Part shown: positions 50 through 13,345 of the stretch, one piece after another
Layout of the letters: every line of letters starts with the position of its first letter
How positions within the stretch are numbered: the stretch's first letter is position 1
DNA from: Pseudomonadota bacterium
GTDB taxonomy: Bacteria; Pseudomonadota; Gammaproteobacteria; Halothiobacillales; Halothiobacillaceae
Length of the DNA stretch: 14,397 bases
Direction: 5' to 3'
Assembly: GCA_021795795.1 (NCBI GenBank)
Contig: JAJYPA010000170.1
Span: 1-14,397 of the forward strand
Position numbers and translations under genes: made by a program
The notes under the pieces: generated by a model
What the model saw: only the letters and a program-made list of their open reading frames with translations
Told to the model about the DNA's origin: nothing
Databases searched by the model: none

Positions 50-126
50 GCGCAGTTAGCTCAGATGGATAGAGCGTCGGCCTCCGAAGCCGAAGGTCAC
101 TGGTTCGACTCCAGTACTGCGCACCA
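50..126 (+). tRNA. tRNA-Arg (anticodon CCG)
   Basis: The cloverleaf can be drawn by eye. The acceptor GCGCAGT (50-56) pairs with ACTGCGC (116-122). The D stem is GCTC/GAGC. The anticodon stem TCGGC/GCCGA encloses the loop CTCCGAA, with CCG at 84-86. The T stem ACTGG/CCAGT encloses TTCGACT. A discriminator A and an encoded CCA follow. It decodes CGG as arginine. The gene is intact and its 3' end faces the integrase gene, as expected for a tRNA used as the attachment site of an integrative element; the inserted element has therefore preserved or restored the tRNA sequence. Confidence 0.97.
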
Positions 127-691: not shown

Positions 692-937
692 ATGAGTTGT
701 TTGACCTATATGACTACGGAAGAGTTGGCCCAGAAAATCAAATATGACTGCCGGACTATCCGGAATCGACTCAAGGATTCTGTGCTTCTTGAAGGAGTCC
801 ATTACATCAGGCCCTTTGGTGGGAGAAAGATTCTCTTTATTTGGGAGAGGATCGAGAAGGATATGGCTGAAATATCTTCTAGATCAGATTTTTCTATTCC
901 TCTTTCTAATGGTGGGGTGTGTCATGGGAAGCATTAA
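692..937 (+). CDS. Excisionase-like small HTH DNA-binding protein
   Basis: An 81-aa protein beginning MSCLTYMTTEELAQKIKYD. I chose ATG 692 because GATAGGAGG ends seven bases before it; a longer reading back to 626 would run into the -35 box. Residues 8-60 (TTEELAQKI..DCRTIRNRLKDSVLLEGVHYIR..GGRKILFIWERI) read like the winged-helix/MerR-like fold of excisionases and phage regulators, including a final strand with a W. Its 3' end overlaps the integrase start (924) by 14 bases, which suggests translational coupling. It is probably the recombination directionality factor. A simple activator is the alternative. Confidence 0.75.
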   Translation: MSCLTYMTTEELAQKIKYDCRTIRNRLKDSVLLEGVHYIRPFGGRKILFIWERIEKDMAEISSRSDFSIPLSNGGVCHGKH

Positions 938-2138
938 AAACCGCCCAGAAAATGGAAAATTATTCTTCGATTTTAGGTACAATGGCATGAGGTGTCGAGA
1001 GCAAACGCTCCTGAAAGATACGCCAACTAATCGCAAGAAGATGCAGAAGGTCCTCGATCGCATCGAAGAAGAGATATCTTTGGGAACCTTTGACTATACG
1101 CGTTATTTTCCGGGCAGCAAGGTATTGGAAAAGCTGAAAGTTGAGCGTGTGCGGTTCCAGCCGTACAAGATCGAGCGTGAGGAAAGTGAGGATACCCCGA
1201 CCTTCGAAGAGTTTGCCAGACAATGGGTCGACGAAATGCGGATTCAATGGCGCAACACGCAGATCAAGACGGTTTCCAACACGCTGAGTAAGTATTTGAT
1301 CCCAACGTTTGGGGAGAAGAGGGTTGGCCTCATCACCAAGAGAGATGTTATGGCGTTTCGGTCGGACCTCGCCAAAGTCCCCGGCCGAAATGGAAAAGCG
1401 CTTTCTGCATCCCGTGTAAACCATATCCTCACACCCTTGCGGATGATCCTCAATGAGGCGGCCAACCGGTACGAGTTTACCTCACCCTATCATGGGATCA
1501 AAAGCCTCAAGGTTCCCCGTACCGACGTGCAGCCATTTTCCTTGGAAGAGGTGGAGGCAATCCTGCGCGCAGTGCGCCCCGACTTTCGCAACTACTACCT
1601 GATTCGTTTTTTCACTGGCCTGCGAACCGGGGAAATCGATGGCTTGCGCTGGGACAAGGTGGATCTACAGCGGCGACAGATACTGGTGCATGAGGCCTTG
1701 GTTGATGGAGAGGTGGTGCCAACCAAGAATGATGGCTCCTTTCGCACGGTGGAAATGTCTCTGCCGGTCTATCAGGCATTCCTGGAGCAGCATCGGGCGA
1801 CCAGGCAGGGGAGTTACGTGTTTTGCACCCGAGATGGCACGCCACTGCGGCATGGCAATGTTACTAAGCGGGTCTGGTATCCGCTCCTGCGTTTTCTTGA
1901 CCTGAAACGCCGGCGCCCCTACCAAACCCGGCACACCGCCGCGACCCTTTGGCTCGCGGCGGGGGAAAGCCCGGAGTGGATCGCCCGACAGATGGGGCAC
2001 AGCACCACGGAAATGCTGTTTCGCATCTACTCGCGCTATGTCCCCAATCTTACCCGGCAGGATGGTTCGGCCATGGAGCGACTCCTGCTCTCTCGTCTCG
2101 CCGGGGTCTCTGCGAGGGAGGAACGCGACCATGATTGA
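924..2138 (+). CDS. Tyrosine recombinase / integrase with DUF3596 arm-binding domain
   Basis: A 404-aa integrase that catalyses site-specific insertion and excision of the element at the tRNA. Residues about 1-65 (KLFFDFRYNGMRCREQTLL...EISLGTFDYTRYFP) are the DUF3596-type arm DNA-binding domain. Residues 93-185 are the SAM-like core-binding domain, and 203-375 the catalytic domain. The catalytic set is visible: R234 (TGLRTGE), K268, Y333-x-x-R336 with H337 (YQTRHT; Tyr replacing the first His occurs in relatives), H359 (MGHST) and nucleophile Y369. I chose ATG 924, with the purine-rich GGTGGGG upstream, because an open frame reaching back to 744 overlaps the excisionase gene. Its stop overlaps the next start (2131). 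Confidence 0.93.
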   Translation: MGSIKNRPENGKLFFDFRYNGMRCREQTLLKDTPTNRKKMQKVLDRIEEEISLGTFDYTRYFPGSKVLEKLKVERVRFQPYKIEREESEDTPTFEEFARQWVDEMRIQWRNTQIKTVSNTLSKYLIPTFGEKRVGLITKRDVMAFRSDLAKVPGRNGKALSASRVNHILTPLRMILNEAANRYEFTSPYHGIKSLKVPRTDVQPFSLEEVEAILRAVRPDFRNYYLIRFFTGLRTGEIDGLRWDKVDLQRRQILVHEALVDGEVVPTKNDGSFRTVEMSLPVYQAFLEQHRATRQGSYVFCTRDGTPLRHGNVTKRVWYPLLRFLDLKRRRPYQTRHTAATLWLAAGESPEWIARQMGHSTTEMLFRIYSRYVPNLTRQDGSAMERLLLSRLAGVSAREERDHD

Positions 2139-2433
2139 ATCTTCGCGGTCAGTATCTGAGATCGTCCCTATAGTCGCCTATTCCGATAGACTTGCTCCAA
2201 GGAACCCGGTGGTGGGGCGCCTAGTGACTGCGCTGTCCTCAGCATTTGCCTTACACGATGCCAGAAGCCTGGCGGCATTGTTGCGGGTGCCGGTCGAACA
2301 GGAGGTCGGTATGGTGCTGCAATGGTGGATATTGCGCTGCTTCCTGGAAATCGACGAGGGGCAGGCCGCCCTCTTGCTGCCCAAGCTGGTGGCGCAGCTC
2401 GACGAAATCCTTGCCGGTCGAGGTGAAGCATGA
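2131..2433 (+). CDS. Unrecognised 100-aa protein in the integrase operon
   Basis: I do not recognise this protein. ATG 2131 overlaps the integrase stop by 8 bases and is preceded by GGGAGGAAC, so translation is coupled. The N-terminal 25 residues look disordered. Residues about 28-95 are rich in Leu/Ala and look all-helical (RLVTALSSAFALHDARSL..., then WWILRCFLEIDEGQAALLLPKL). There is no signal peptide, Cys cluster or clear nucleic-acid motif. Its gene ends in an ATGA overlap with the HD-domain gene, so it probably works with that protein, perhaps as a small helical partner or accessory factor; this is inference from position only. Confidence 0.8.
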   Translation: MIESSRSVSEIVPIVAYSDRLAPRNPVVGRLVTALSSAFALHDARSLAALLRVPVEQEVGMVLQWWILRCFLEIDEGQAALLLPKLVAQLDEILAGRGEA

Positions 2434-3353
2434 ATAAGGAACTATGGCGAGAGGAGTTCGTTCTGCAAAAACTGCGATCAGCGACCAGCCGGTTTGGCCA
2501 GCCCTTCACCGTCTGCGCGCTACAGGATACCTCGGAGCAAGTCTGGACCGCCTACTGGTGGCAGCAATTCCCGCACCCAATACTTTGGCCCGATGGGATC
2601 GAGGTGATTGCTACCGTGCGGGATCGGCGCTTTGGAGATCGTCGGGTTTTGGACGTGACGACGATGGAACTAACCGCACTCTCCGACTCGGTGCCGGGTG
2701 GGACGCTAGACTCAATCCCCTTTCCGCAGTGGTTGCTGCCGCAGACCTCCGCGCCGTGCCTATTACGCGAGCTGTGGGCGCAGATTGGACTGGTGGAAAA
2801 CCCCTGGGTGCGTCTTTTCAATCAGCGCATCCTCCACGACCCCGATATCAGTCTTCGCTGGGTATCGATTCCCGCAAGTCGCGATCATCACCACGCCGAG
2901 TCTGCAGGATTGCTGCGGCACAGCCTCGAGGCGCTGCGCTTGCTTAGCAAGAGCCCGCAAATGTCGCAACTGGAGTGGGATATTGCCCGCACGGCCATCC
3001 TCTGGCACGACGTCGGGAAAATACTCTCTTTTTCGGCGGGGGAACGACGGGGGGTAGAGGGATATCTGGTGCCGCATGAGACGGCCACGTCAGAGATACT
3101 CGCCCCCCATCTGGTATGGTTGCGTCAGCGAGCCCCGGATTTGGTCACGGCCTTGAAACTGCACTGGTACCCGCCTCGCCATGGACGCCCGCTCATGCCC
3201 GGGCAACTATTGGTCGAAGCTTGCGATCGCATGAGTGCTGCATTGGATAGTCGGGAACAGGCTTTCCAGCAGCAGCCAGCATGGCGCCAGTTTGGTCGGT
3301 TGGATGGTTCGGGGCCAGCCTCTCGCTTCTGGCGTCTTCGGGAGGGACCCTGA
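2430..3353 (+). CDS. HD-domain metal-dependent phosphohydrolase-like protein
   Basis: A 307-aa protein with a C-terminal HD domain. Visible metal ligands are H164 (HHHAESAGLLRHSLEAL), the H193-D194 doublet (ILWHDVGK), H216 (PHETAT) and D266 (EACDRM). Residues about 22-80 have strand-rich OB-like character (FTVCALQDTS..., IEVIATVRDRRFGDRRVLDV). The OB-plus-HD order and the HHHxxxxGLLRHSLE motif recall two groups: YhaM-type 3'-5' exonucleases, and the HD part of TraI_2/MobH relaxase proteins of integrative conjugative elements. The substrate is therefore likely a nucleic acid or nucleotide, but that is inference. ATG 2430 overlaps the previous stop (ATGA). The stop TGA is followed directly by an ATG. 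Confidence 0.85.
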   Translation: MNKELWREEFVLQKLRSATSRFGQPFTVCALQDTSEQVWTAYWWQQFPHPILWPDGIEVIATVRDRRFGDRRVLDVTTMELTALSDSVPGGTLDSIPFPQWLLPQTSAPCLLRELWAQIGLVENPWVRLFNQRILHDPDISLRWVSIPASRDHHHAESAGLLRHSLEALRLLSKSPQMSQLEWDIARTAILWHDVGKILSFSAGERRGVEGYLVPHETATSEILAPHLVWLRQRAPDLVTALKLHWYPPRHGRPLMPGQLLVEACDRMSAALDSREQAFQQQPAWRQFGRLDGSGPASRFWRLREGP

Positions 3354-3380
3354 ATGGCGATAGTGGTTTACACATGCTGA
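3354..3380 (+). other. Eight-codon leader with in-frame TGA before protein A
   Basis: ATG 3354 follows the HD-gene stop without a gap (TGAATG) and has GGGAGGGA about 7 bases upstream, an excellent ribosome binding site. Its frame is that of protein A, but after eight codons it meets TGA (3378-3380). The open frame then continues, with TTG at 3384 the nearest usable start and no ribosome binding site of its own. It could be a nonsense mutation, a natural leader with termination-reinitiation, a recoded codon, or a sequence error. Confidence 0.6.
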
Positions 3381-3383
3381 CGG

Positions 3384-6125
3384 TTGCCCAACAATAACCC
3401 AGTCTTCTTCTCATGGGCACGTGAATACGTGGCAGACTCCGGGGCTTCTCCAAAAGCAAATGATGATCGCCAACGCCAAGCTATCCCGGCCGCCTTTGCG
3501 GAATTCCAGAAATTCTATCGAGTGCTGGAAGCCGACGCATCAATAACGACTGCGGATATGCTGGAGATGTTCCGTGATCTGGGGGTGTACGGCCATCTGA
3601 CAGAGATCCAAACCGTCTGCGCGAATCTGCAAGAAATTCTGGATCTGTTGCGGGGGCTTCCCAGTTGGCAGGCATACCTGGAGCCGGTGCAAAAATGGCC
3701 CAGGCTTTTGGATTGGGTTTTGTCCCACGCTGATAGTTTGCCGCAACCACGGTACAGTGTCAGCACGGCCTTTCGGAACCCGCTGGTGCATCTGTGTACC
3801 ACCAGCCATCCGCTTTATGCATTGCTTTGGACCAGTACTGAGCCAGAACAATTACGGGACTTTCGCCTACTCCAAGGCCATGTCGTGCTTTCTCATATGC
3901 GAAAAATAAAAAAACATCCCGACTACGCCTATAACTATCGGGATCAGGAGAGAGCCCCATATACCGAGTTGCTTGAAGGGACCTATCGATGTGGCCTGGC
4001 GCTGCGAGAAATTTCCCTGCCGGGATCGGCGATAACCCCAGAACTGCTACGGCCAGAACGTCCACCGGTCTTGTTTGCCGAACAGTTGTATGCGATATGG
4101 GAAGCCCTGCAAGCGTACCGGAAAATGCGAAAGGATGGGCTTTCAAGTCAGGGGCAAGGGTCGGATGGAGAGGAGGGGATCGACGGAGTTTCCGCGAGCG
4201 ATCCAGAGTTGTTTGATCTTCTGCGTCGGTTGGAGTCTTCCAAAATACACGGTCACTTGCGAAGTTTCTGCTACGATATGGCCGAGGCTTATGAGCTTCG
4301 GAAGCGCGGAATCAGAATTCGAGAACCGGGTAAGCCACGAGAACGTCACACCCTCCATGGCTATCTTCCACTCGTCAGTTTGCAGGGCGACGAGATTGGG
4401 AAGTCGGATGATGATCCAGCGAAACGCCCCATTCGCTGGCAGCTAGGTGGGGAGGCCGCCCATAGTTTGGGGCGGGGCGCGGCTGGTGCGCGCCGCTTCG
4501 AAGAAGAGTTTGATTTGGATAGCGAAGAGAACGTCGGTGACGAATTTCTCGAGGTGGATTCTGACTGTTCGTTGCTATCGCAGAGTATTCCTTCCCTGCA
4601 GTCCCTGGCATTGCGGGGGAAAATGTATGCCGAGGCGTTGCAGAACCAGATCTTCCCCTGGGAGTATGACCTCCTGACCGATAGCGCTTTGCGCTCCCTG
4701 CTCGATCATATGGACAGCGACTTTGCCGAGGAACTCGAAAAATCGGAAGCGAAGCCGTCGATCCGGGCGGAGTGCATCGCCCTGCTGAGCATTCTCCTCT
4801 GGACGGGCTGCGGGCTCAAAGCGGCTCGACAAATCCATACGGTGGAACCCGGACAAAAGCTGGGTCTGCACATGCTTGGTCTGCAGGAAGGGCCAGAGGG
4901 GGCAACTTGGCTCTTGCGGATTCCTCCACCCAGCCACGGGAATGCCGCGCGACTCCAGATTCCCGGATGTGCGGATGTGAGTGAGCAGGTTTTGTTTTTG
5001 CCGGATATTGCTGAGGGCAGCGCATGCTGGCGTCAATTACGCCAGCATTACCCGAGTGACAGTGAGCTCTCGTTTTTTCGACCCGTCACTTATTATCGGA
5101 AGTTGTTGCCACGATATCTGCGTCAAGTGGACCCCAGTGGCTACCTGAGCCTGACGAAAGTGGAGGACTATCTCTGGCGGCGACTGGCCAGCAGCGGAGA
5201 TTTGGCAGAGGCGGATCTGATCGTGGGCAAACAGCATCGTTTGAGTCAGGTGCGGCGTTTCTACACCACGCTCCAAACCGAAAGGTTGGCGCTACGCTAT
5301 CAGTCGGTGGTTTCACAAGTTTTGCAGGACATGGGGCGCGACCAGCCCGCGAGAGCCATTGCCATGACACCCGCCAGCTACATTGGGGCGGTATATCGTC
5401 CGAAGCTTGCCACCGTACGTGATGTCGTGGCGCGTCTGCAGGAGGAGTTGCATAACCTCCAGGGGCAGTGGCAGAACATCGCTGCAGGAGGTTGGGATTC
5501 TGCCAGCAATCGCCTGTGGCGCGAGCATTACAATACCTACACCCTCTATACTTGGGTCTTTTTCTCCTATGGCACTGCGGCCCGGGCGACTTGCGCGCCT
5601 TTTCCGCAAGAGGGATTGGAAGATCTCCAAGAGGGTTTCATCGTCTATTCGGACAAGACGACGCGAGATCGGTCCCATGTCCGCCTTTTGTGGATGCCGG
5701 AAGCGCTCTTGAGCCAGTTGCGTGCGCAAAAGGCTTTTGCTTGGAGCGTAAGTGATACCGGGGCCGCCGGGGAAGAAGCGGTCGAAAAGGGGAGTAATTT
5801 CCTGATGGGGCAACGGGCGGCGCAACCCCTTTGTCCCAAGGTACTTCAGCCGTACCTTGAGGCGTGGTTTGGGCATGCGCTACCCGTAAATAGCCACCGG
5901 CGATTCTGTCGCTCCTATCTTTTGGAGCTGAGCTGCCCGATTGAGGTGGTGGACGCTTTCATGGGCCATTGGTTTACGGGCGAATCGCCCTGGAGCCGCT
6001 TTTCCAGCCAGTCGGCCAGAGACTATGCCCGACAACTCAAGCCGTATTTGACAAAGCTGTTGGCAGAAATTGGGCTGGTCTTTGTTCCGCCGCCGAAGCC
6101 GGCCGATTTGCGCAGAGAGTGTTGA
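3384..6125 (+). CDS. Giant tyrosine-recombinase-like protein A (divergent active site)
   Basis: About 913 aa if read from TTG 3384, far longer than a usual 300-400 aa tyrosine recombinase. The C-terminal 200 residues carry a recombinase-like catalytic fold: R734 (SYGTAARAT), K758 (IVYSDKTTRDR), R839/R840 in NSHRRFCRSYLLEL, and H861 in FMGHWFTGESPWSRFSS. At the nucleophile position I see F873, with Y881 further on. A second box-I-like stretch (LLWTGCGLKAARQI, 471-484) suggests an additional recombinase-like fold mid-protein, with Lys for Arg. Residues 1-440 are helical and unrecognised, with an acidic linker (375-396). The start is unsure: the well-placed ATG at 3354 meets an in-frame TGA at 3378. 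It lies 6 bases before protein B. Confidence 0.8.
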   Translation: MPNNNPVFFSWAREYVADSGASPKANDDRQRQAIPAAFAEFQKFYRVLEADASITTADMLEMFRDLGVYGHLTEIQTVCANLQEILDLLRGLPSWQAYLEPVQKWPRLLDWVLSHADSLPQPRYSVSTAFRNPLVHLCTTSHPLYALLWTSTEPEQLRDFRLLQGHVVLSHMRKIKKHPDYAYNYRDQERAPYTELLEGTYRCGLALREISLPGSAITPELLRPERPPVLFAEQLYAIWEALQAYRKMRKDGLSSQGQGSDGEEGIDGVSASDPELFDLLRRLESSKIHGHLRSFCYDMAEAYELRKRGIRIREPGKPRERHTLHGYLPLVSLQGDEIGKSDDDPAKRPIRWQLGGEAAHSLGRGAAGARRFEEEFDLDSEENVGDEFLEVDSDCSLLSQSIPSLQSLALRGKMYAEALQNQIFPWEYDLLTDSALRSLLDHMDSDFAEELEKSEAKPSIRAECIALLSILLWTGCGLKAARQIHTVEPGQKLGLHMLGLQEGPEGATWLLRIPPPSHGNAARLQIPGCADVSEQVLFLPDIAEGSACWRQLRQHYPSDSELSFFRPVTYYRKLLPRYLRQVDPSGYLSLTKVEDYLWRRLASSGDLAEADLIVGKQHRLSQVRRFYTTLQTERLALRYQSVVSQVLQDMGRDQPARAIAMTPASYIGAVYRPKLATVRDVVARLQEELHNLQGQWQNIAAGGWDSASNRLWREHYNTYTLYTWVFFSYGTAARATCAPFPQEGLEDLQEGFIVYSDKTTRDRSHVRLLWMPEALLSQLRAQKAFAWSVSDTGAAGEEAVEKGSNFLMGQRAAQPLCPKVLQPYLEAWFGHALPVNSHRRFCRSYLLELSCPIEVVDAFMGHWFTGESPWSRFSSQSARDYARQLKPYLTKLLAEIGLVFVPPPKPADLRREC

Positions 6126-6131
6126 TCTGGG

Positions 6132-9100
6132 ATGGCACAAGGTGCTGAAGGCTCTTACCGAGAGCAAGTCCAGGAGCTCTGGGAAACGATTCAGGCAAGC
6201 CCGGGGGCGAAGCGGGGGAGTCGTCTGTTCCATGAGTCGGAGGTCCAACGCTACCGCGCTTGGCTCAGCCGTGAGACGGCCACGGCAGATTCCCTGAGCA
6301 GATCAGGAAGAAAGCTTCCGTATCGGTTTTTTTTGCGCTGTTTGCAGGGAGACGAACCCCCAGAATCCGTGGGTGACAATAGCCGAGAATCTCTGACGCA
6401 GCAGCTTCACGACCGGGTGTTGCTATTGTTTGCGCCGGAGGAGGAGGGCAACGCTGCGGCGGCCGTAAAGAATCGCCAGGAAAAAGTATTGAAATCGCGC
6501 CTGCGCGGTCAGGCGAAGTTCCTCCAGTTCCTGAATTTGCTGATTCGGTTGGGAAATGCCCAAAAACTGTGGCAGTGGTGCCCTCCCTCCGTGCCCAGAT
6601 TACTGGATCGAGAGTCAACCCCCTTCACGCCGGACGGATTGGAAGGGTATCGGTACGTGCAGGCGGCCAAAAGCTTGCTCTGGGAGGATTTTCGAAAGGG
6701 AACGAGGCCGGATGAACTGGTCGCCGAAGGGCGCATTTTGCTGAGTGCCTTGCTCTTCGGCGGCCTCGGCGAAATGGCCGCGTTACGCGAGCTGCAAAAA
6801 AAACTGCGCGGTGGGGCTGTGCTACAATATTTTCCAAAACCTGGCTGGAGTTTTCTGGATCTCGAAATCCCCATGGGCCGGGGCGGCAAACGACTACGTC
6901 GGTGGTTTCCAGACCCCTTGTCGGAAATTCTCTTCTTGCATCATAACCCCAGCCCAAAACTACTGGAGGAAAGTGAAAAGGCGGAGGTCCTGCGCGCAAT
7001 TGATGCCTATCTTCACATCCTCCCTAAGTTGTATGGAAAGTACATCCGTGTCCGAAAATTGATCACCGCTATCCCACAATCGCTGCTTGTGGACCTTCCC
7101 CAGTTCTTGGCGGCCTACGGCGCTGGCTCCTTGACTGCCCACGCCGTCCGGCCTGAGCGTTGGTGGCGTCTGCACGGCTATGAGTGGGGCAGCAAAGACG
7201 GAGAGGGAAAATCCCCGGGTACAGACGCTGAAGAAGAGGCTCTATCCGCAGAGAATACGCAGGATGCGCGGACAGGAACGATTGCCGATGTCCAGGAGGC
7301 GATTCAAACCGTACCGTGGATACAGTCCCTGCGAAAGATTCTGGGCAACCAGAATCGCTTATTGGCGTTGCGGGAACTTGGAGCAACGCCAATGGATGCC
7401 AGATCAGATAGCTTGGGTCGGCTTTTTTATGGTTGGGCGGAGCACCTCCTGAAGCATGGGTCTGCCTATCGCCACCGGTTGGCGATGCGCACCATCCGGC
7501 GGTACGTCAGTCGTCTTGCGGCATTGATGGCGCAACTCCTGGAAAAACCCGCAGACATCAAGATGTTCGGAGACCCGTCTTGGCGACAGATCTATGAAGA
7601 CCTTCTGGATTTGGTGGAAACGGAACATCAACGAGCGTTTCTCGTGCGAGCCATCCGGGAGTGGCATCAGTACCTCGTCGAGAGATACCTCGCAAGTCCC
7701 ATTTCCGATCAGGAATTAGGAGGCTTCGCCATTGATGTCGTGCCCGATGCACGCATCATTAGCGAAGCGGAGTTTGCGCAAGTCAAATGGATGATTGCGC
7801 AGGGGCGGCATAGGGTCTACCATGCCCAGCTTCCGACGGTGCTCACCCTTATTTCGATCTTGGGATATCGTTGTGGATTGCGCCGCATGGAAGTTCTGCG
7901 GTTGCGCCTAATGGATTGCCACCTATTTGGCAGGGCCATGTTGCTCATTCGCCCTTTTGCGGAACGCTCCCTCAAGAGTCGGAATGCGACGCGGGCGATT
8001 CCCCTCTATGTCCTGCTGGAACCCGACGAGTTGCAGCTGCTCTCAGAATGGGTGCAGATTCGAGAGCAGTCGGGTGCTCAGGACGAAAGTTATCTTTTTG
8101 TGCTGGCGGAAATTGGTCACGATCCGATCTCCCAGGAAATGGCGATGTCGCGTGTTCATGAAGCCATGCGCCAGGCGACGGGTGATGAGCGGATCCACTT
8201 CCATCACTTGCGCCATAGCTTTGCGAATCAACTCCTCTGGCGGCTGTCCTTGTCGCAGATCGCCCCGGAGGTGCTGCCTCATGACTTGCGCGACGAACAA
8301 CAGGCTGCCAGGCAATTTGCGGCGCGACTCCTGGGAACCGGGCAGCAGACCCGAAAGCATCTCTATGCTCTGACGAGCCTGTTGGGACACTCGACGCCGG
8401 AGATTACCCTGAACCACTACGTCCACAACCTGGATCTGCTGCTCGCCCTGCACTTGCGGAAGCAGATTCCCAGGGGAATCGGGCGGGATTGGCAGGGATT
8501 TCTCTCGGATATTCACCAGGCGACGATCTATCGGGCACTGGCCAAAGGGATGGATGGCCCGTTGGACCTCGTGCGCAAGCAGCGCAAGGATCGGCTTCGG
8601 ATTCCGCGTGACATCGAGGAGGTCAAAGAGGGGCCGAGACCAAGGCAGACCGTTGAGGAGGGCGATCTAGAAAGTCGTATGGAAGAGGCCTGGCGGATGC
8701 TTTTGCAGGGGATGGTGCTGCAAAAAGAGAACAAGGGGGGAGAGGATGTGTGGGAACGCTTGGCACAGGAAAGTAACTTCTCGGGGGGGCAGATGCGGGC
8801 GATGGCGGCCAAGGCAGAGGAAATATTCGAGCTGAAGGGTCACAGAGGGCAGCGGCATCGTCCCTTTGAACTGTCGACAGTGGGGGGGCGGATGCAGATC
8901 GATCTGCCCCCCAAGATCTCCCGCCGGGTCGATCGCGAAATCTATCTGCATCTGCTGCCAAGCTTTTGGCAAAGCATTCAGCAGGATGCTGGCAGCGTGA
9001 GTTGGGTTTTGGATAGCTACCTGCAACAGGCGTGGCGGGATTGTCCGGGCTATTATCTCGCCAAGTCGGTGGAAACGCCGGAAGACGTCCAGGCGTTTCG

Positions 9101-9416
9101 GGACCTACTCTTCGACTGGGGGATTAAGCCCGGGCAAATCGCGTATGTCAGTTATGATCCGGCAGAGCGGTCGTTTTGGCGCCAGCGCTGGCGAAAGGCG
9201 TTGGGCTTGCATAAGAGAATCTCCATAGATATTAGGCAGCTACCAGACCCAGACTCCGCAAGGCCATGGCTTCACATCTATCCCCGGTTCCCTCGCGGGA
9301 AGAGGGGATATCTCTCGGCGTCGCCTGGGTTCAGCTACCTGTTGATCATGGGTGCTATCGTGCTGCGAGGAGCGCTATGGTTACAGACGGATAGCCATTC
9401 GACGAGCTACAGCTAA
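6132..9416 (+). CDS. Giant tyrosine recombinase B with complete catalytic motif
   Basis: A 1094-aa protein. A typical catalytic domain occupies about residues 540-775: R584 and E587 (YRCGLRRMEVLRLRL), K615, H691-x-x-R694 (HHLRHS), H753 (LLGHSTPEITLNHY) and nucleophile Y763, ten residues after H753 as usual. It is therefore expected to cut and join DNA. Residues 425-525 look like the core-binding SAM-like domain. The N-terminal 400 residues are unusual; LLSALLFGGLGEMAALREL (203-221), followed by strands around 228-265, could be a second, decayed recombinase fold. The last 310 residues are also unassigned, with an acidic/basic linker at 810-860. ATG 6132 follows protein A by 6 bases. Similar-size partners and tight coupling suggest A and B act together. 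Confidence 0.88.
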   Translation: MAQGAEGSYREQVQELWETIQASPGAKRGSRLFHESEVQRYRAWLSRETATADSLSRSGRKLPYRFFLRCLQGDEPPESVGDNSRESLTQQLHDRVLLLFAPEEEGNAAAAVKNRQEKVLKSRLRGQAKFLQFLNLLIRLGNAQKLWQWCPPSVPRLLDRESTPFTPDGLEGYRYVQAAKSLLWEDFRKGTRPDELVAEGRILLSALLFGGLGEMAALRELQKKLRGGAVLQYFPKPGWSFLDLEIPMGRGGKRLRRWFPDPLSEILFLHHNPSPKLLEESEKAEVLRAIDAYLHILPKLYGKYIRVRKLITAIPQSLLVDLPQFLAAYGAGSLTAHAVRPERWWRLHGYEWGSKDGEGKSPGTDAEEEALSAENTQDARTGTIADVQEAIQTVPWIQSLRKILGNQNRLLALRELGATPMDARSDSLGRLFYGWAEHLLKHGSAYRHRLAMRTIRRYVSRLAALMAQLLEKPADIKMFGDPSWRQIYEDLLDLVETEHQRAFLVRAIREWHQYLVERYLASPISDQELGGFAIDVVPDARIISEAEFAQVKWMIAQGRHRVYHAQLPTVLTLISILGYRCGLRRMEVLRLRLMDCHLFGRAMLLIRPFAERSLKSRNATRAIPLYVLLEPDELQLLSEWVQIREQSGAQDESYLFVLAEIGHDPISQEMAMSRVHEAMRQATGDERIHFHHLRHSFANQLLWRLSLSQIAPEVLPHDLRDEQQAARQFAARLLGTGQQTRKHLYALTSLLGHSTPEITLNHYVHNLDLLLALHLRKQIPRGIGRDWQGFLSDIHQATIYRALAKGMDGPLDLVRKQRKDRLRIPRDIEEVKEGPRPRQTVEEGDLESRMEEAWRMLLQGMVLQKENKGGEDVWERLAQESNFSGGQMRAMAAKAEEIFELKGHRGQRHRPFELSTVGGRMQIDLPPKISRRVDREIYLHLLPSFWQSIQQDAGSVSWVLDSYLQQAWRDCPGYYLAKSVETPEDVQAFRDLLFDWGIKPGQIAYVSYDPAERSFWRQRWRKALGLHKRISIDIRQLPDPDSARPWLHIYPRFPRGKRGYLSASPGFSYLLIMGAIVLRGALWLQTDSHSTSYS

Positions 9417-10618: not shown

Positions 10619-11221
10619 ATGTCCTTGATAATGTGTGGCAGACCTTGGCAGCGAGGTCGGTGGATCCAAGGGTTGGTGCTGGTCCCTTTCTGCTTCCTTT
10701 TTCCCCAATCCCTGCAGTATGACCTGCCCAGAGTCCCTATCGGATTGCAGTGGGAGGCAATGATCTCTGCCCAGAACCGAGATTGGCACCGCTTGGCAGG
10801 GCCCTTTGTCAGGCCTGTGGAGATGGCTTCCAGAGAGACTGGGATTCCACCGATGTTGCTCGCTGCTGTGGTCTTTGTGGAGAGTCGGGGCCAAGCGAGA
10901 GCTATCAGCTCTGCCGGGGCCATTGGCCCCATGCAGCTGATGCCGACTACGGCAATGAGGGTCTTGCATGTGAATCCTTGGCAGATCCAGCAAAACATTC
11001 TAGGTGGGGCGGTGTTCTTGCAAGACCTCCTCAAACGGTTTCACGGAAACCTGACGTTGGCCTTGGAGGCGTACAATGCCGGTCCAACCAGGGTGGCCTC
11101 GGGAGAACCGCTTCCCCCGTCTGCTGTCGCCTACGCCAAAACTGTTGAGGCGCTCTTGCAGTGGGCCAAGGCGGGAACCCAGGCAGCACCACTGCAAAGC
11201 CGCGCCACTACTCAGTTGTAA
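10619..11221 (+). CDS. Lytic transglycosylase (SLT/GH23 domain)
   Basis: A 200-aa peptidoglycan-cleaving enzyme. Numbered from ATG 10619, the catalytic Glu is E88 in VVFVESRGQ. It is followed by the GH23 motifs GAIGPMQLMPTTA (100-112) and ALEAYNAGPTRV (148-159). An N-terminal hydrophobic segment (WIQGLVLVPFCFLF, 15-28) acts as a signal peptide or anchor, so the enzyme works in the periplasm. The start is uncertain: TTG 10604, ATG 10619 and ATG 10631 are all possible and none has a good ribosome binding site, so coupling to the upstream gene ending at 10613 is likely. Small solo SLT proteins of this kind often serve secretion or pilus assembly, but no such genes are visible here. Confidence 0.9.
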   Translation: MSLIMCGRPWQRGRWIQGLVLVPFCFLFPQSLQYDLPRVPIGLQWEAMISAQNRDWHRLAGPFVRPVEMASRETGIPPMLLAAVVFVESRGQARAISSAGAIGPMQLMPTTAMRVLHVNPWQIQQNILGGAVFLQDLLKRFHGNLTLALEAYNAGPTRVASGEPLPPSAVAYAKTVEALLQWAKAGTQAAPLQSRATTQL

Positions 11222-11442
11222 TATCCGGGGGGTGGAGGTGGCGGCGGTCCCGGTGGCGGGGGAGGTGGTGCTCCCGGCCCTGGCGGCGGTGGTGGGGGTG
11301 GCCCATAGAACCCCCCTGGTCCTGGAGGCGGCGGTGAGACTTCGGCGTAGCAGCCCGCGAGTCCCAAGCTCAATCCTAAGAGCGTCAGCCAACCGGCTAG
11401 TCTTACTCCCTTCACCTTGCGCTTACTCCAATCGATATCCAT
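11212..11442 (-). CDS. Proline-rich small lipoprotein
   Basis: A 76-aa lipoprotein with ATG at 11442 behind a strong AAAGGAG site. After a basic n-region (SKRKVKGVR) come a hydrophobic run and the lipobox LAGC (28-31). The mature part is almost wholly proline and glycine (PPPPGPGGFYGPPPPPPPGPG..., ending PPPPGYYN). It was probably an extended, wall-spanning or surface-exposed spacer. It lies 12 bases after the upstream minus-strand gene in the same direction, so the two form an operon. Its last 10 bases overlap the convergent transglycosylase gene. Low-complexity sequence limits family assignment. Confidence 0.8.
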   Translation of the reverse strand: MDIDWSKRKVKGVRLAGWLTLLGLSLGLAGCYAEVSPPPPGPGGFYGPPPPPPPGPGAPPPPPPGPPPPPPPGYYN

Positions 11443-11454
11443 TCGCGTTCTCCT

Positions 11455-11796
11455 TTAGTAACCGTAGATGGAGCGATCATACTTCCGTTGTGCCTTGTAC
11501 ATTCTCTTGTAGTATTTGCGTCGCGCTTTCCAATAGCGATGCTCCGCCTTTCGCTGACGCTTTTCCCAGTGCCGCTCCCAGTGTGCCTCTTTTCGGTAAG
11601 CCCGCCAGGAATATGCGGGACTGTAGCCATCGGTATACAGGTCTTCTCCAAGAGGTTGCCCCCAAGCGGCAGGGGACACGTTCAAAGCGAAGGTGAGCGT
11701 ATCGGCCCGTGCAGTACCGAAACCCATGGCCGAACAGCCCAAAGAAACCAATACGATCCCTAACGATAGAATTCGGTTACAACGTCTTCTCTGCAT
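11455..11796 (-). CDS. Exported basic, aromatic-rich protein
   Basis: A 113-aa protein. I chose ATG 11796 because GGAG lies about eight bases upstream; the longer frame to 11829 would need a TTG start. Residues 1-31 form a signal peptide (QRRRCNRILSLGIVLVSLG..., cleavage after ARA). The mature N-terminus ADTLTFALNVS resembles that of the plus-strand Pro-rich protein at 12782 (ADPLNFSLDLG). The C-terminal half (65-113) is highly basic and rich in W/Y/H, reading as a charged helix (EAHWERHWEKRQRKAEHRYW...). It could bind polyanions such as lipopolysaccharide or nucleic acid in the periplasm, but this is inference. No known family recognised. Confidence 0.8.
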   Translation of the reverse strand: MQRRRCNRILSLGIVLVSLGCSAMGFGTARADTLTFALNVSPAAWGQPLGEDLYTDGYSPAYSWRAYRKEAHWERHWEKRQRKAEHRYWKARRKYYKRMYKAQRKYDRSIYGY

Positions 11797-12077
11797 CACT
11801 TGTCTCCGATCGTCCCGCTGGGTACCCAAGCAGGAAAGATGCCAACCAGAAGAAACCCTGCTGCAATCGTAGAGAATTCGCTGATTCCCACCGATTAAGA
11901 TACCCCCTGTCCAAGCTTCCCAACCCCACAGTCGTCTCCGTCAGGCGACAATTCTGGAGGAAACTGCGGGAGGTTTGCGAGGGTCCTACCAGTAATTCTC
12001 GAAGAACATGGCAGTTTTTGTCGCTGGCACGAGGATTGCTGCTCTGTCTCGCAAGTCGCAAGATCAGGAGTGATCCC
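11797..12077. promoter_or_regulatory. Divergent intergenic region between two envelope genes
   Basis: About 280 bases separate the minus-strand exported-protein gene from the plus-strand beta-barrel gene. Promoters for both must lie here if they are expressed, but I see no -35/-10 pair good enough to name. I see no repeat or small gene either. The open plus-strand frame through it is not a convincing gene. Confidence 0.35.
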
Positions 12078-12752
12078 ATGAAAAAAAATCGATTGTTCGT
12101 TTTGCTGCTGGGCACGACTCTGCTCGCTGCTACCGTAACGGCAGATGCTTCGATTTATTCGGCCATGAATCAGGCGGATGTATCCGGCAATGTCCAGGGC
12201 ACAACCAACCAGTATGGTAACACCGCAGGCGGCCTAGGCGTGCGCGGGAGCCTGTTTAGCAACGGGCTCTTTGGCACCGCCAAGTATCGTCATCAATTCG
12301 GACCCGTTTACCAGGGGTACACGGGCGGCGATAGCAATACCTTTGGACTGAAGGTCGGTTACCTCTTCGCTGCCACCCCTTTCGTTGCGGTAGGCCCCTA
12401 TCTGGGATACGAGTACAACCGATTTTCGGAAAATGACGCCTATCTGCATTCTCAAGCATCCCAGAGCCTGGATAATCTTGGTGGCGGCCTGTATGCAGCA
12501 GCTTCCTTGCCTTTCGCGAACGTAACTGGGTACCTGGGATATCTCGGAGGAGTATCGGAAACCAATCATGTCACTGGTTTCCCCCCGGTACAGTACAACC
12601 GATCCTCGAATCTGCTGCAGATGGGGGTCAATGTTTACTACCCATTGGTGGCCAACCTGGATTTCTTTGTGGGCCTGCACGATGATGACTTTACCCAAAC
12701 CGGTGCCCCCAACCTGCTACGCGGTGACGTCGGTCTTGGCGCTTCCTTTTAA
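12078..12752 (+). CDS. Small outer-membrane beta-barrel protein
   Basis: A 224-aa protein. ATG 12078 follows CAGGAG; the open frame reaches further back, but that part overlaps the minus-strand gene and looks non-coding. Signal peptide 1-24 (KKNRLFVLLLGTTLLAATV, cleavage after ADA). The mature protein alternates short aromatic strands with Gly/Asn turns (GTAKYRHQFGPVYQGY, FGLKVGYLFA, VAVGPYLGYEYNRF, MGVNVYYPLVANLDFFVGLH) and ends in Phe (GLGASF), the signal recognised by the Bam machinery. Probably an eight-stranded barrel of the YfaZ/OmpW-like size class. The divergent minus-strand pair and the Pro-rich gene downstream make an envelope cluster. Confidence 0.85.
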   Translation: MKKNRLFVLLLGTTLLAATVTADASIYSAMNQADVSGNVQGTTNQYGNTAGGLGVRGSLFSNGLFGTAKYRHQFGPVYQGYTGGDSNTFGLKVGYLFAATPFVAVGPYLGYEYNRFSENDAYLHSQASQSLDNLGGGLYAAASLPFANVTGYLGYLGGVSETNHVTGFPPVQYNRSSNLLQMGVNVYYPLVANLDFFVGLHDDDFTQTGAPNLLRGDVGLGASF

Positions 12753-12781
12753 GCATTCCTACCCAGAATAAGGAGTCTTCC

Positions 12782-13345
12782 ATGTTGAAGCCGCCAAATA
12801 AAACCCTGCTCTCGCTATTTCTGGCATCGAGTCTCGGTTTTGTCGGGAGCGCACACGCCGACCCGTTGAATTTCAGCCTGGACTTGGGTGGGCCTGGGTA
12901 CGCCGTAGGGTTTTCCAACTACCCGCAGTATAGTTTTTGGGCTCCACCTCCAGCATATGGGGAATACTATCCGCAGCCGCTCTATGCCCAGTATCTGATG
13001 TGGTACTACTACCCCCAATACTACTATGAGTACTACCCAGCGCCGCCACCCCCGCCGCCTCCGGGGGCACCGCCTCCGCCCCCGCCGCCGGCAGGCGCTC
13101 CGCCACCACCGCCTCCAGGGGCATATTTTGCGGGGCTAGGTATTTCGCCACCCCCACCTCCACCGCCAGGGGCACCACCCCCGCCACCGCCGGGAGGACC
13201 ACCGCCGGGAGGACCACCACCAGGAGGACCGTCACCAGGAGGACCACCACCAGGAGGACCACCACCAGGAGGACCACCACCAGGAGGGCCGCCACCGGGA
13301 GGGCCGCCACCAGGAGGGCCACCACCAGGAGGGCCACCAAGATAG
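12782..13345 (+). CDS. Exported Pro/Gly/Tyr-rich repeat protein
   Basis: A 187-aa protein starting 29 bases after the beta-barrel stop, with AAGGAG upstream; it is probably co-transcribed with that gene. Signal peptide 1-26 (cleavage after AHA). The mature start DPLNFSLDLGG matches the minus-strand exported protein's DTLTFALNVS. Next is a Tyr/Pro-rich part (residues about 46-85, e.g. LMWYYYPQYYYEYYP), then polyproline blocks with GA spacers, then a run of PPPGG pentapeptides encoded by ten 15-bp repeats. Extended polyproline with tyrosine suggests a surface or adhesive/structural protein, or one able to be cross-linked. No catalytic domain. Low complexity makes homology uncertain. Confidence 0.8.
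   Translation: MLKPPNKTLLSLFLASSLGFVGSAHADPLNFSLDLGGPGYAVGFSNYPQYSFWAPPPAYGEYYPQPLYAQYLMWYYYPQYYYEYYPAPPPPPPPGAPPPPPPPAGAPPPPPPGAYFAGLGISPPPPPPPGAPPPPPPGGPPPGGPPPGGPSPGGPPPGGPPPGGPPPGGPPPGGPPPGGPPPGGPPR
13186..13335 (+). repeat. Ten tandem 15-bp repeats encoding PPPGG
   Basis: Fifteen-base units of the form ACCACCAGGAGGACC run without a break for ten copies; a partial unit precedes the stop. Copies differ mainly at third positions (CCA/CCG, GGA/GGG), and one copy has TCA for CCA (Ser for Pro). Because the unit is a multiple of three, copy number can change by slippage without breaking the frame. Confidence 0.9.

Follow-up and report, generated by a model that had tools for sequence, protein, structure and literature searches.

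The contig JAJYPA010000170.1 of the assembly GCA_021795795.1, from a bacterium classified within the Halothiobacillaceae, was analysed over a stretch of 14,397 nt (the window), in which a tRNA-Arg gene is followed by a tyrosine integrase (Int) and by four genes named S, HD, A and B, the last two coding for very large proteins. An initial annotation had described the integrase as followed by a 100-aa protein, an HD-domain protein and two proteins of about 913 and 1094 aa, and the open reading frames (ORFs) and their junctions confirmed this description. The four genes stand as listed there, although the set turned out to include two more, one for an excisionase-like small protein (Xis) and one for a helix-turn-helix (HTH) regulator on the opposite strand. 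The start of S overlaps the stop of Int (2138) by 8 nt, HD overlaps S by 4 nt, and intervals of 30 and 6 nt separate HD from A and A from B. Such overlaps and short gaps suggest that the genes from Int to B are expressed as a single transcription unit.

The seven-gene order HTH, Xis, Int, S, HD, A and B is identical in four other Acidithiobacillus loci (L001-L004), which were selected for holding B and lie beside the same tRNA gene, so that with the window included it is found at tRNA-Arg in 5/5 Acidithiobacillus loci. Such a recurrence, in loci chosen through B, is more than chance would produce. The window is Acidithiobacillus-like, since the organism-named close relatives of A and B are all Acidithiobacillus. 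The genes had also been said to follow the integrase without a gap, which is true of the window but not of two relatives, where a PemK-like ORF (L002) or a metallo-hydrolase-like ORF and a second ORF (L003), all named by eye, lie between HD and A. These intervening genes divide the set into two modules, Xis-Int-S-HD and A-B. No common right end was detected in the right flanks of the five loci. The family is represented by 29 genomes, four of which have A; full-length HD occurs in the same four, and three further genomes match HD only over ~30 residues interrupted by stops. Weak HD matches of this kind from four genomes were dropped, unsupported by tblastn of the stretches L052, L061, L066 and L067.

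Table 1. Features of the window and, in the last row, the boundary regions on Acinetobacter plasmids.
Feature	Position	Strand	Basis or remark
tRNA-Arg (CCG)	50..126	+	ARAGORN; presumed integration target
HTH regulator, 81 aa	306..551	-	Pfam HTH_26 4e-16; homologues in L001-L004, L005, L006
Xis-like small protein, 81 aa	692..937	+	56-81% identity to 9 Int-adjacent relatives
Int, tyrosine integrase	924..2138	+	PF12167 5e-26, PF00589 8e-16
S, 100 aa	2131..2433	+	of no known family; homologues in L001-L004
HD, 307 aa, predicted OB-HD phosphohydrolase/nuclease	2430..3353	+	TraI_2 6e-7, HD 1.7e-4
A, 913 aa, tandem tyrosine-recombinase-fold protein	3384..6125, TTG start	+	predicted structure
A domain 1, residues ~427-651	4662..5336	+	predicted fold and residue alignment
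A domain 2, residues ~665-897	5376..6074	+	predicted fold and residue alignment
B, 1094 aa, tyrosine recombinase of the active type, with a long extension at each end (N and C)	6132..9416	+	PF00589 1.5e-15
B core-binding and catalytic domains, residues ~425-773	7404..8450	+	
Acinetobacter plasmid boundary regions	L139:8352, L139 14731-15109, L138:6001-6240		

B is, by sequence and model, a complete tyrosine recombinase of the active type. The residues R584, K615, H691, R694, H753 and Y763 lie within its predicted recombinase fold, and the series R-K-H-R-H-Y is complete in 17 of 18 B sequences, the eighteenth (L100) stopping short of the region. Generic recombinase models of NCBIfam matched B under their cut-offs only. 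In the model, B residues ~165-350 (window 6624-7181) form a pattern of one helix and three strands, reminiscent of another degenerate recombinase fold.

Protein A had no Pfam match of weight (best E 0.22) and no significant NCBIfam match. Its AlphaFold (AF2) model has a predicted local distance difference test score (pLDDT) of 74.5, and VIA-align of this model gave tyrosine-recombinase fold matches at ~427-651 and ~665-868. The description of A and B as two giant tyrosine recombinases is thus upheld for B by PF00589 and the catalytic residues, whereas A is recombinase-like only in its predicted structure. In domain 1, Tyr627 is kept (Tyr in 18/18 sequences) and both the Box I Arg and the GH His are missing. 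Domain 2 keeps R734, K758, R839 and H862 (R, K, R and H in 19/19 sequences) and has Asn at 836, in the place of the first His in HxxR; it has no fixed Tyr, the slot at 873 being Phe in the window, with Tyr881 present. A complete single-domain active site was found in neither domain, and the two tandem folds, as modelled, are decayed in complementary fashion. Comparing the profile of B with those of the two A domains, and the latter with each other, gave nothing significant with alignments of 17-19 rows. L122, a protein of 1767 aa that is a probable fusion only (A profile 5e-5), is counted both in the 19 sequences of A and in the 17 of B. A protein search with a diverse A alignment returned only 3 proteins, near its first row.

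Within the other module, Int is an ordinary Arm-type integrase by family search. Its ORF is open from 744, the ATG at 924 is the start that agrees with the homologues, and the Pfam scores were computed on the translation from 855. The excisionase label of Xis is putative and derives from its position and a weak PHROG match (E 0.32). In having a tyrosine integrase and an Xis-like gene next to a tRNA gene, the locus resembles tRNA-integrating integrative and mobilizable or integrative and conjugative elements. A second copy of the tRNA-Arg 3' end was not found within the window. Extra copies of this end and the following bases (≤1 mismatch) occur on other contigs in two of the four relatives (G001 and G003), unlinked to this element; those at G003 C99:28560-28589 and 31247-31276 and at G001 C26:73-102 may be att sites, whether of these islands or of different ones. 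Between the tRNA and HTH genes, an 18-nt repeat is present three times with 11 bp spacing (174-213), and the repeats are perhaps arm-type sites for Int.

S has no family in Pfam, NCBIfam, PADLOC or PHROG-type family searches. HD is akin to OB-HD nucleases and to MobH N-termini: its match to YhaM (9o7t; E 7.6e-5, profile 12-226) covers both the OB and the HD part, and with TraI_2 of the MobH relaxases it has the HD motif block in common. The residues H154, H155, H164, H193, D194, H216 and D266 are invariant in a 10-row alignment. At 307 aa, HD is about half as long as the MobH-like frames found (605-773 aa); it scored 29.6 bits against the NCBIfam MobH equivalog (cut-off 200) and 21.9 bits against the other curated equivalog, YhaM/CBF1 (cut-off 460), far too low in both cases.

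A first scan of genome contigs with the single B found no relative, and the scan with a B alignment yielded 11 loci, L001-L004 included, in one of which (L011) only a piece of B is present. No relative was found in viral contigs, and phages gave no B match. Outside Acidithiobacillus, a B-like gene has an A-like neighbour in two near-identical Marinobacter loci and in metagenome-assembled genomes (MAGs) of a betaproteobacterium, a member of the Saccharospirillaceae, a Propionivibrio and an acidobacterium. A search through 369 genomes from the class detected A in 10 of them, at 12 places, comprising 7 with a separate adjacent B (A being a C-terminal piece only in L095 and B ending at the contig end in L100), 3 A-B fusions (1825 aa in L098, 1278 aa in L099 and a truncated 530 aa in L097) and 2 contig-end or fragment cases; in L092, B is cut off by the contig end. 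In one genome A is seemingly split between two short contigs (L095:904-2151 and L096:1089-2954), each piece beside the same 282-aa mobile-element-like ORF. A small ORF of 158-381 aa, named X, lies directly upstream of A in L006-L010, L090, L091, L093, L094 and L099, with a C-x-G-N stretch common to four of the five first aligned. The X profile matches mostly its own seed sequences, and no X lies upstream of A in Acidithiobacillus.

The association between the two modules extends to these relatives. Members of the Int family adjoin A-B in L005, L006, L090, L091, L093, L094 and Aeromonas caviae (L134), and adjoin the probable fusion in L122; in all eight loci the Int module and A-B face each other, at most 4 kb apart. 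Int and Xis together lie beside A-B in the two Marinobacter loci and in four gammaproteobacteria (L090, L091, L093 and L094), and Int accompanied by HD in A. caviae, whose 4.9 Mb record is labelled plasmid in the collection and is chromosome-sized. HD adjoins or lies near A-B in L091, L094, L095 and L134, and no HD match is listed at L005-L010, L090 and L093. Int was not seen in the stretches of L007, L008, L010, L092, L095 and L097-L100, several of which are short contigs; the genome of L009 carries an Xis-Int-HD set on a separate contig (L133).

Counts over the 369 genomes point in the same direction, with p values in which kinship is ignored. Xis (E≤1e-10) occurs in 15 genomes, namely 7 of the 10 with A and 8 of the 359 without (Fisher p 4e-9), and the seven have Xis and A on the same contig in five cases and on different contigs in G124 and G178. 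Short HD-type proteins were counted in 8 genomes (5/10 with A vs 3/359; p 2e-7), and HD and Xis occur jointly in 7 (p 3e-10). The HD count depends on a cut set after seeing the E-values: 19 genomes matched, and 11 were excluded at E 3e-11 to 9e-9, ten with frames of 605-773 aa and one (G083) with an 88-aa frame with stops. At this cut half of the A genomes (5/10) are without the HD family, which makes HD optional; the co-occurrence of A-B and HD expected elsewhere was met with in four loci (L091, L094, L095 and L134) but failed in these genomes. Twelve more stretches were examined, ten around Xis matches without A nearby and one each for G124 and G008. An Int gene is present in 10 of the 12, and all ten, L122 among them, have a tRNA gene (Arg, Met or Val) within 2.6 kb. 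Int genes of the same family without A-B in the stretch also lie beside tRNA genes.

Plasmids provided the cases in which the modules come apart. B matched 13 of 72,556 plasmid records (B of L091 matched 14), and only three stretches (L134-L136) were inspected for the presence of A, B, Int and HD; their ORF upstream of A had no match to the X profile at E≤0.01. Stretches from plasmids of Vibrio cyclitrophicus and Acinetobacter carry A-B with a small upstream ORF (X-A-B hereafter) and neither Int nor HD. Together with the linkage counts, this finding establishes that the Int module and A-B are associated and separable, and the single module of the initial annotation has to give way to two. That an integrase is already present and that A-B constitutes extra machinery was correctly recognised, and this machinery is most likely tied to mobility. 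At about even odds (roughly 0.5), we take the window to be the part nearest the tRNA of a mobile genomic island that has two modules for recombination, in which B and A, joined by X where it is present, would form a second, heteromeric tyrosine-recombinase machine.

The plasmid stretches also bear on a different reading, in which X-A-B is an autonomous transposon similar to GInts or to strand-biased circularizing integrative elements (SEs); it would be nested within Int islands or hitchhike on them, the modules merely co-travelling. In addition to the occurrence of X-A-B without Int or HD, the Acinetobacter copies have a left boundary fixed at one base (L139:8352), 245 bp upstream of the first gene, which abuts two different neighbours, one in L139 and one common to L137 and L138. 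The L139-type left neighbour exists without X-A-B in L141, and the DNA immediately past the B stop is also found in the plasmid stretch L140, where no X-A-B genes are annotated. However, neither a clean empty site nor a terminal repeat longer than 12 nt was found at these boundaries, which for that reason count as a lead only. Further, Xis, HD and A co-occur far above expectation and the convergent layout recurs (L090, L091, L093, L094 and L134), which argues against modules that travel independently. We therefore keep the autonomous transposon as a tentative alternative with an appreciable chance of being right. In L138, 241 bp from the right of B are repeated upstream with 95% identity, and in this plasmid the defence genes qatC and qatD are annotated ~3 kb past B.

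The Acinetobacter X-A-B genes lie near rep and par genes, a location that would suit a role of A-B in maintaining the island or its circular form, by dimer resolution or segregation, with HD processing DNA ends. The fold of B resembles that of Xer recombinases and HD is YhaM-like, which would also suit such a role. Nevertheless, Cre, lambda Int and other tyrosine recombinases also match B in the same fold table, and most of the A-B loci seen are on genome contigs, where an integrase may or may not be next to them, which renders maintenance quite unlikely as the main function.

Defence genes adjoin several of the loci. According to PADLOC, A-B is accompanied by a cyclic oligonucleotide-based antiphage signalling system (CBASS) set of phospholipase, cyclase, E1-E2 and JAB in L094, by the methylase and specificity subunits of a type I system in L091 and, in L006, by Hhe together with an Mrr-type enzyme. 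Where no A-B is present in the stretch, the Int loci yielded ZacB plus ZacC in L123, genes for type I restriction and its specificity in L126, and a PDC-M55C/HEC-05 protein in L129. Weak matches were obtained for a TIR protein (L001) and a JukA-like protein (L090), and a marginal one in L093. The scan covered 20 proteins picked by eye, four without a match at the thresholds used, so the share of matches is not a rate. Some relatives may thus carry defence genes as cargo, a term applied here by adjacency. An anti-phage function of A-B or HD themselves, as part of the cargo, would fit this neighbourhood and the weak match of HD to Cas3 HD models (2e-4), but no PADLOC model matches A or B, and A-B is located in a repeated layout beside the integrase module and not among the variable cargo; we consider this explanation very improbable. 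Beyond B, the window contains two proline-rich ORFs (11212-13345; 76 aa, minus strand, and 187 aa, plus strand) with P runs and GGPPP repeats.

No named element of exactly this composition was found in the open literature searched, as the initial annotation had supposed; nevertheless, elements on a similar plan exist, GInts and SEs, which are set apart here by their published descriptions. Passages on GInts describe one ginABCD operon whose four genes are all required for excision and integration, a GinC without the first Arg, and examples inserted at protein genes with short direct repeats, 10-17 nt in length (Bardaji et al., 2017; PMC5385486). As described there, GInts resemble our locus in being islands with several adjacent tyrosine recombinases, one of them degenerate, and a large variable cargo. 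They have three recombinases and a small fourth protein at one end, whereas here recombinases of similar kinds are arranged with Int split from A-B by S and HD, and the tRNA integrase, the Xis-like protein, S and the HD enzyme make up a separate module. SEs are reported to have an intA-tfp-intB operon plus srap, enclosed by terminal inverted repeats of 13-19 bp, and their Tfp has a recombinase fold without the RHRY motif (PMC10214605). In the knockouts described in that source, loss of intA, intB or srap abolished the recombination product, a tfp knockout was unobtainable and only srap was complemented. An ordinary recombinase, a large one and a recombinase-fold protein without RHRY are common to both plans as described. 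In contrast, the SE core genes are named there without Xis or HD, the A model has two recombinase folds, and the contiguous order intA-tfp-intB-srap was not encountered, the order here being Int-S-HD-A-B, with HD and A further separated by additional genes in L002 and L003.

The archetype of RIT elements, in the account given by PMC10214605, has three recombinases of 315-410 aa, all with the catalytic Tyr; A and B are far longer and A has no complete single-domain active site. Gamma-Mobile-Trio (GMT) islands are described as mobile and carrying antiphage defence genes (PMC12039261), and one member, GmtY, is a recombinase by its model name. The proposed parallel failed for GmtY: NCBIfam GmtY (NF040693) had no match at E≤1 to Int, A or B. 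GmtX and GmtZ gave no match in NCBIfam-type scans, the presence of their models in the release not being confirmed. A GmtY-positive locus (L105:7519-12656; ORFs of 441, 908, 200 and 159 aa) shares its genome with two A-B loci, of which one is a fusion; it lies on another contig than these, and its neighbours have no match to the A or B profiles.

If the window belongs to an island with two recombination modules, Xis-Int would insert and excise the island at tRNA genes, a role attributed to Int on account of its tRNA position and enzyme family. B would cut and rejoin DNA. A, its ordinary active site lost, may bind partner sites through its two recombinase folds and position the DNA; the division between a non-standard positioning partner and a chemically active B is drawn by analogy with GInts and SEs. 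A and B may form a complex and perform a second recombination reaction, acting on the island itself or on what it carries, such as excision, circularisation or DNA capture, and X, the upstream protein in most relatives, would belong to this second machine. In the least supported step, HD may act as an accessory nuclease of the Int module that trims or processes DNA or RNA. A bolder proposal, which we regard as rather doubtful, is that A is a fused intramolecular dimer with a composite active site, in which Tyr627 of domain 1 and the Arg-Lys-Arg-His pocket of domain 2 would allow cleavage in trans between the halves, A and B then assembling into a hetero-tetramer of unlike giant subunits within a new family of defence-carrying, tRNA-integrating islands.

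Xis, A and B could serve as markers for such islands, A and B being unmatched in PADLOC, A without a significant match in NCBIfam and B with generic matches below the cut-offs only. If the proposed reading is true, the few multi-recombinase islands described (GInt, SE and GMT) would be joined by a two-module family that has a nuclease as partner, that in part of its members carries defence genes as cargo, and whose range covers gammaproteobacteria and MAGs of betaproteobacteria and Acidobacteria. It would also become testable why such elements retain a recombinase-fold protein that is unable to cut in the ordinary way, a question to which the complementary decay of A would offer a specific answer.

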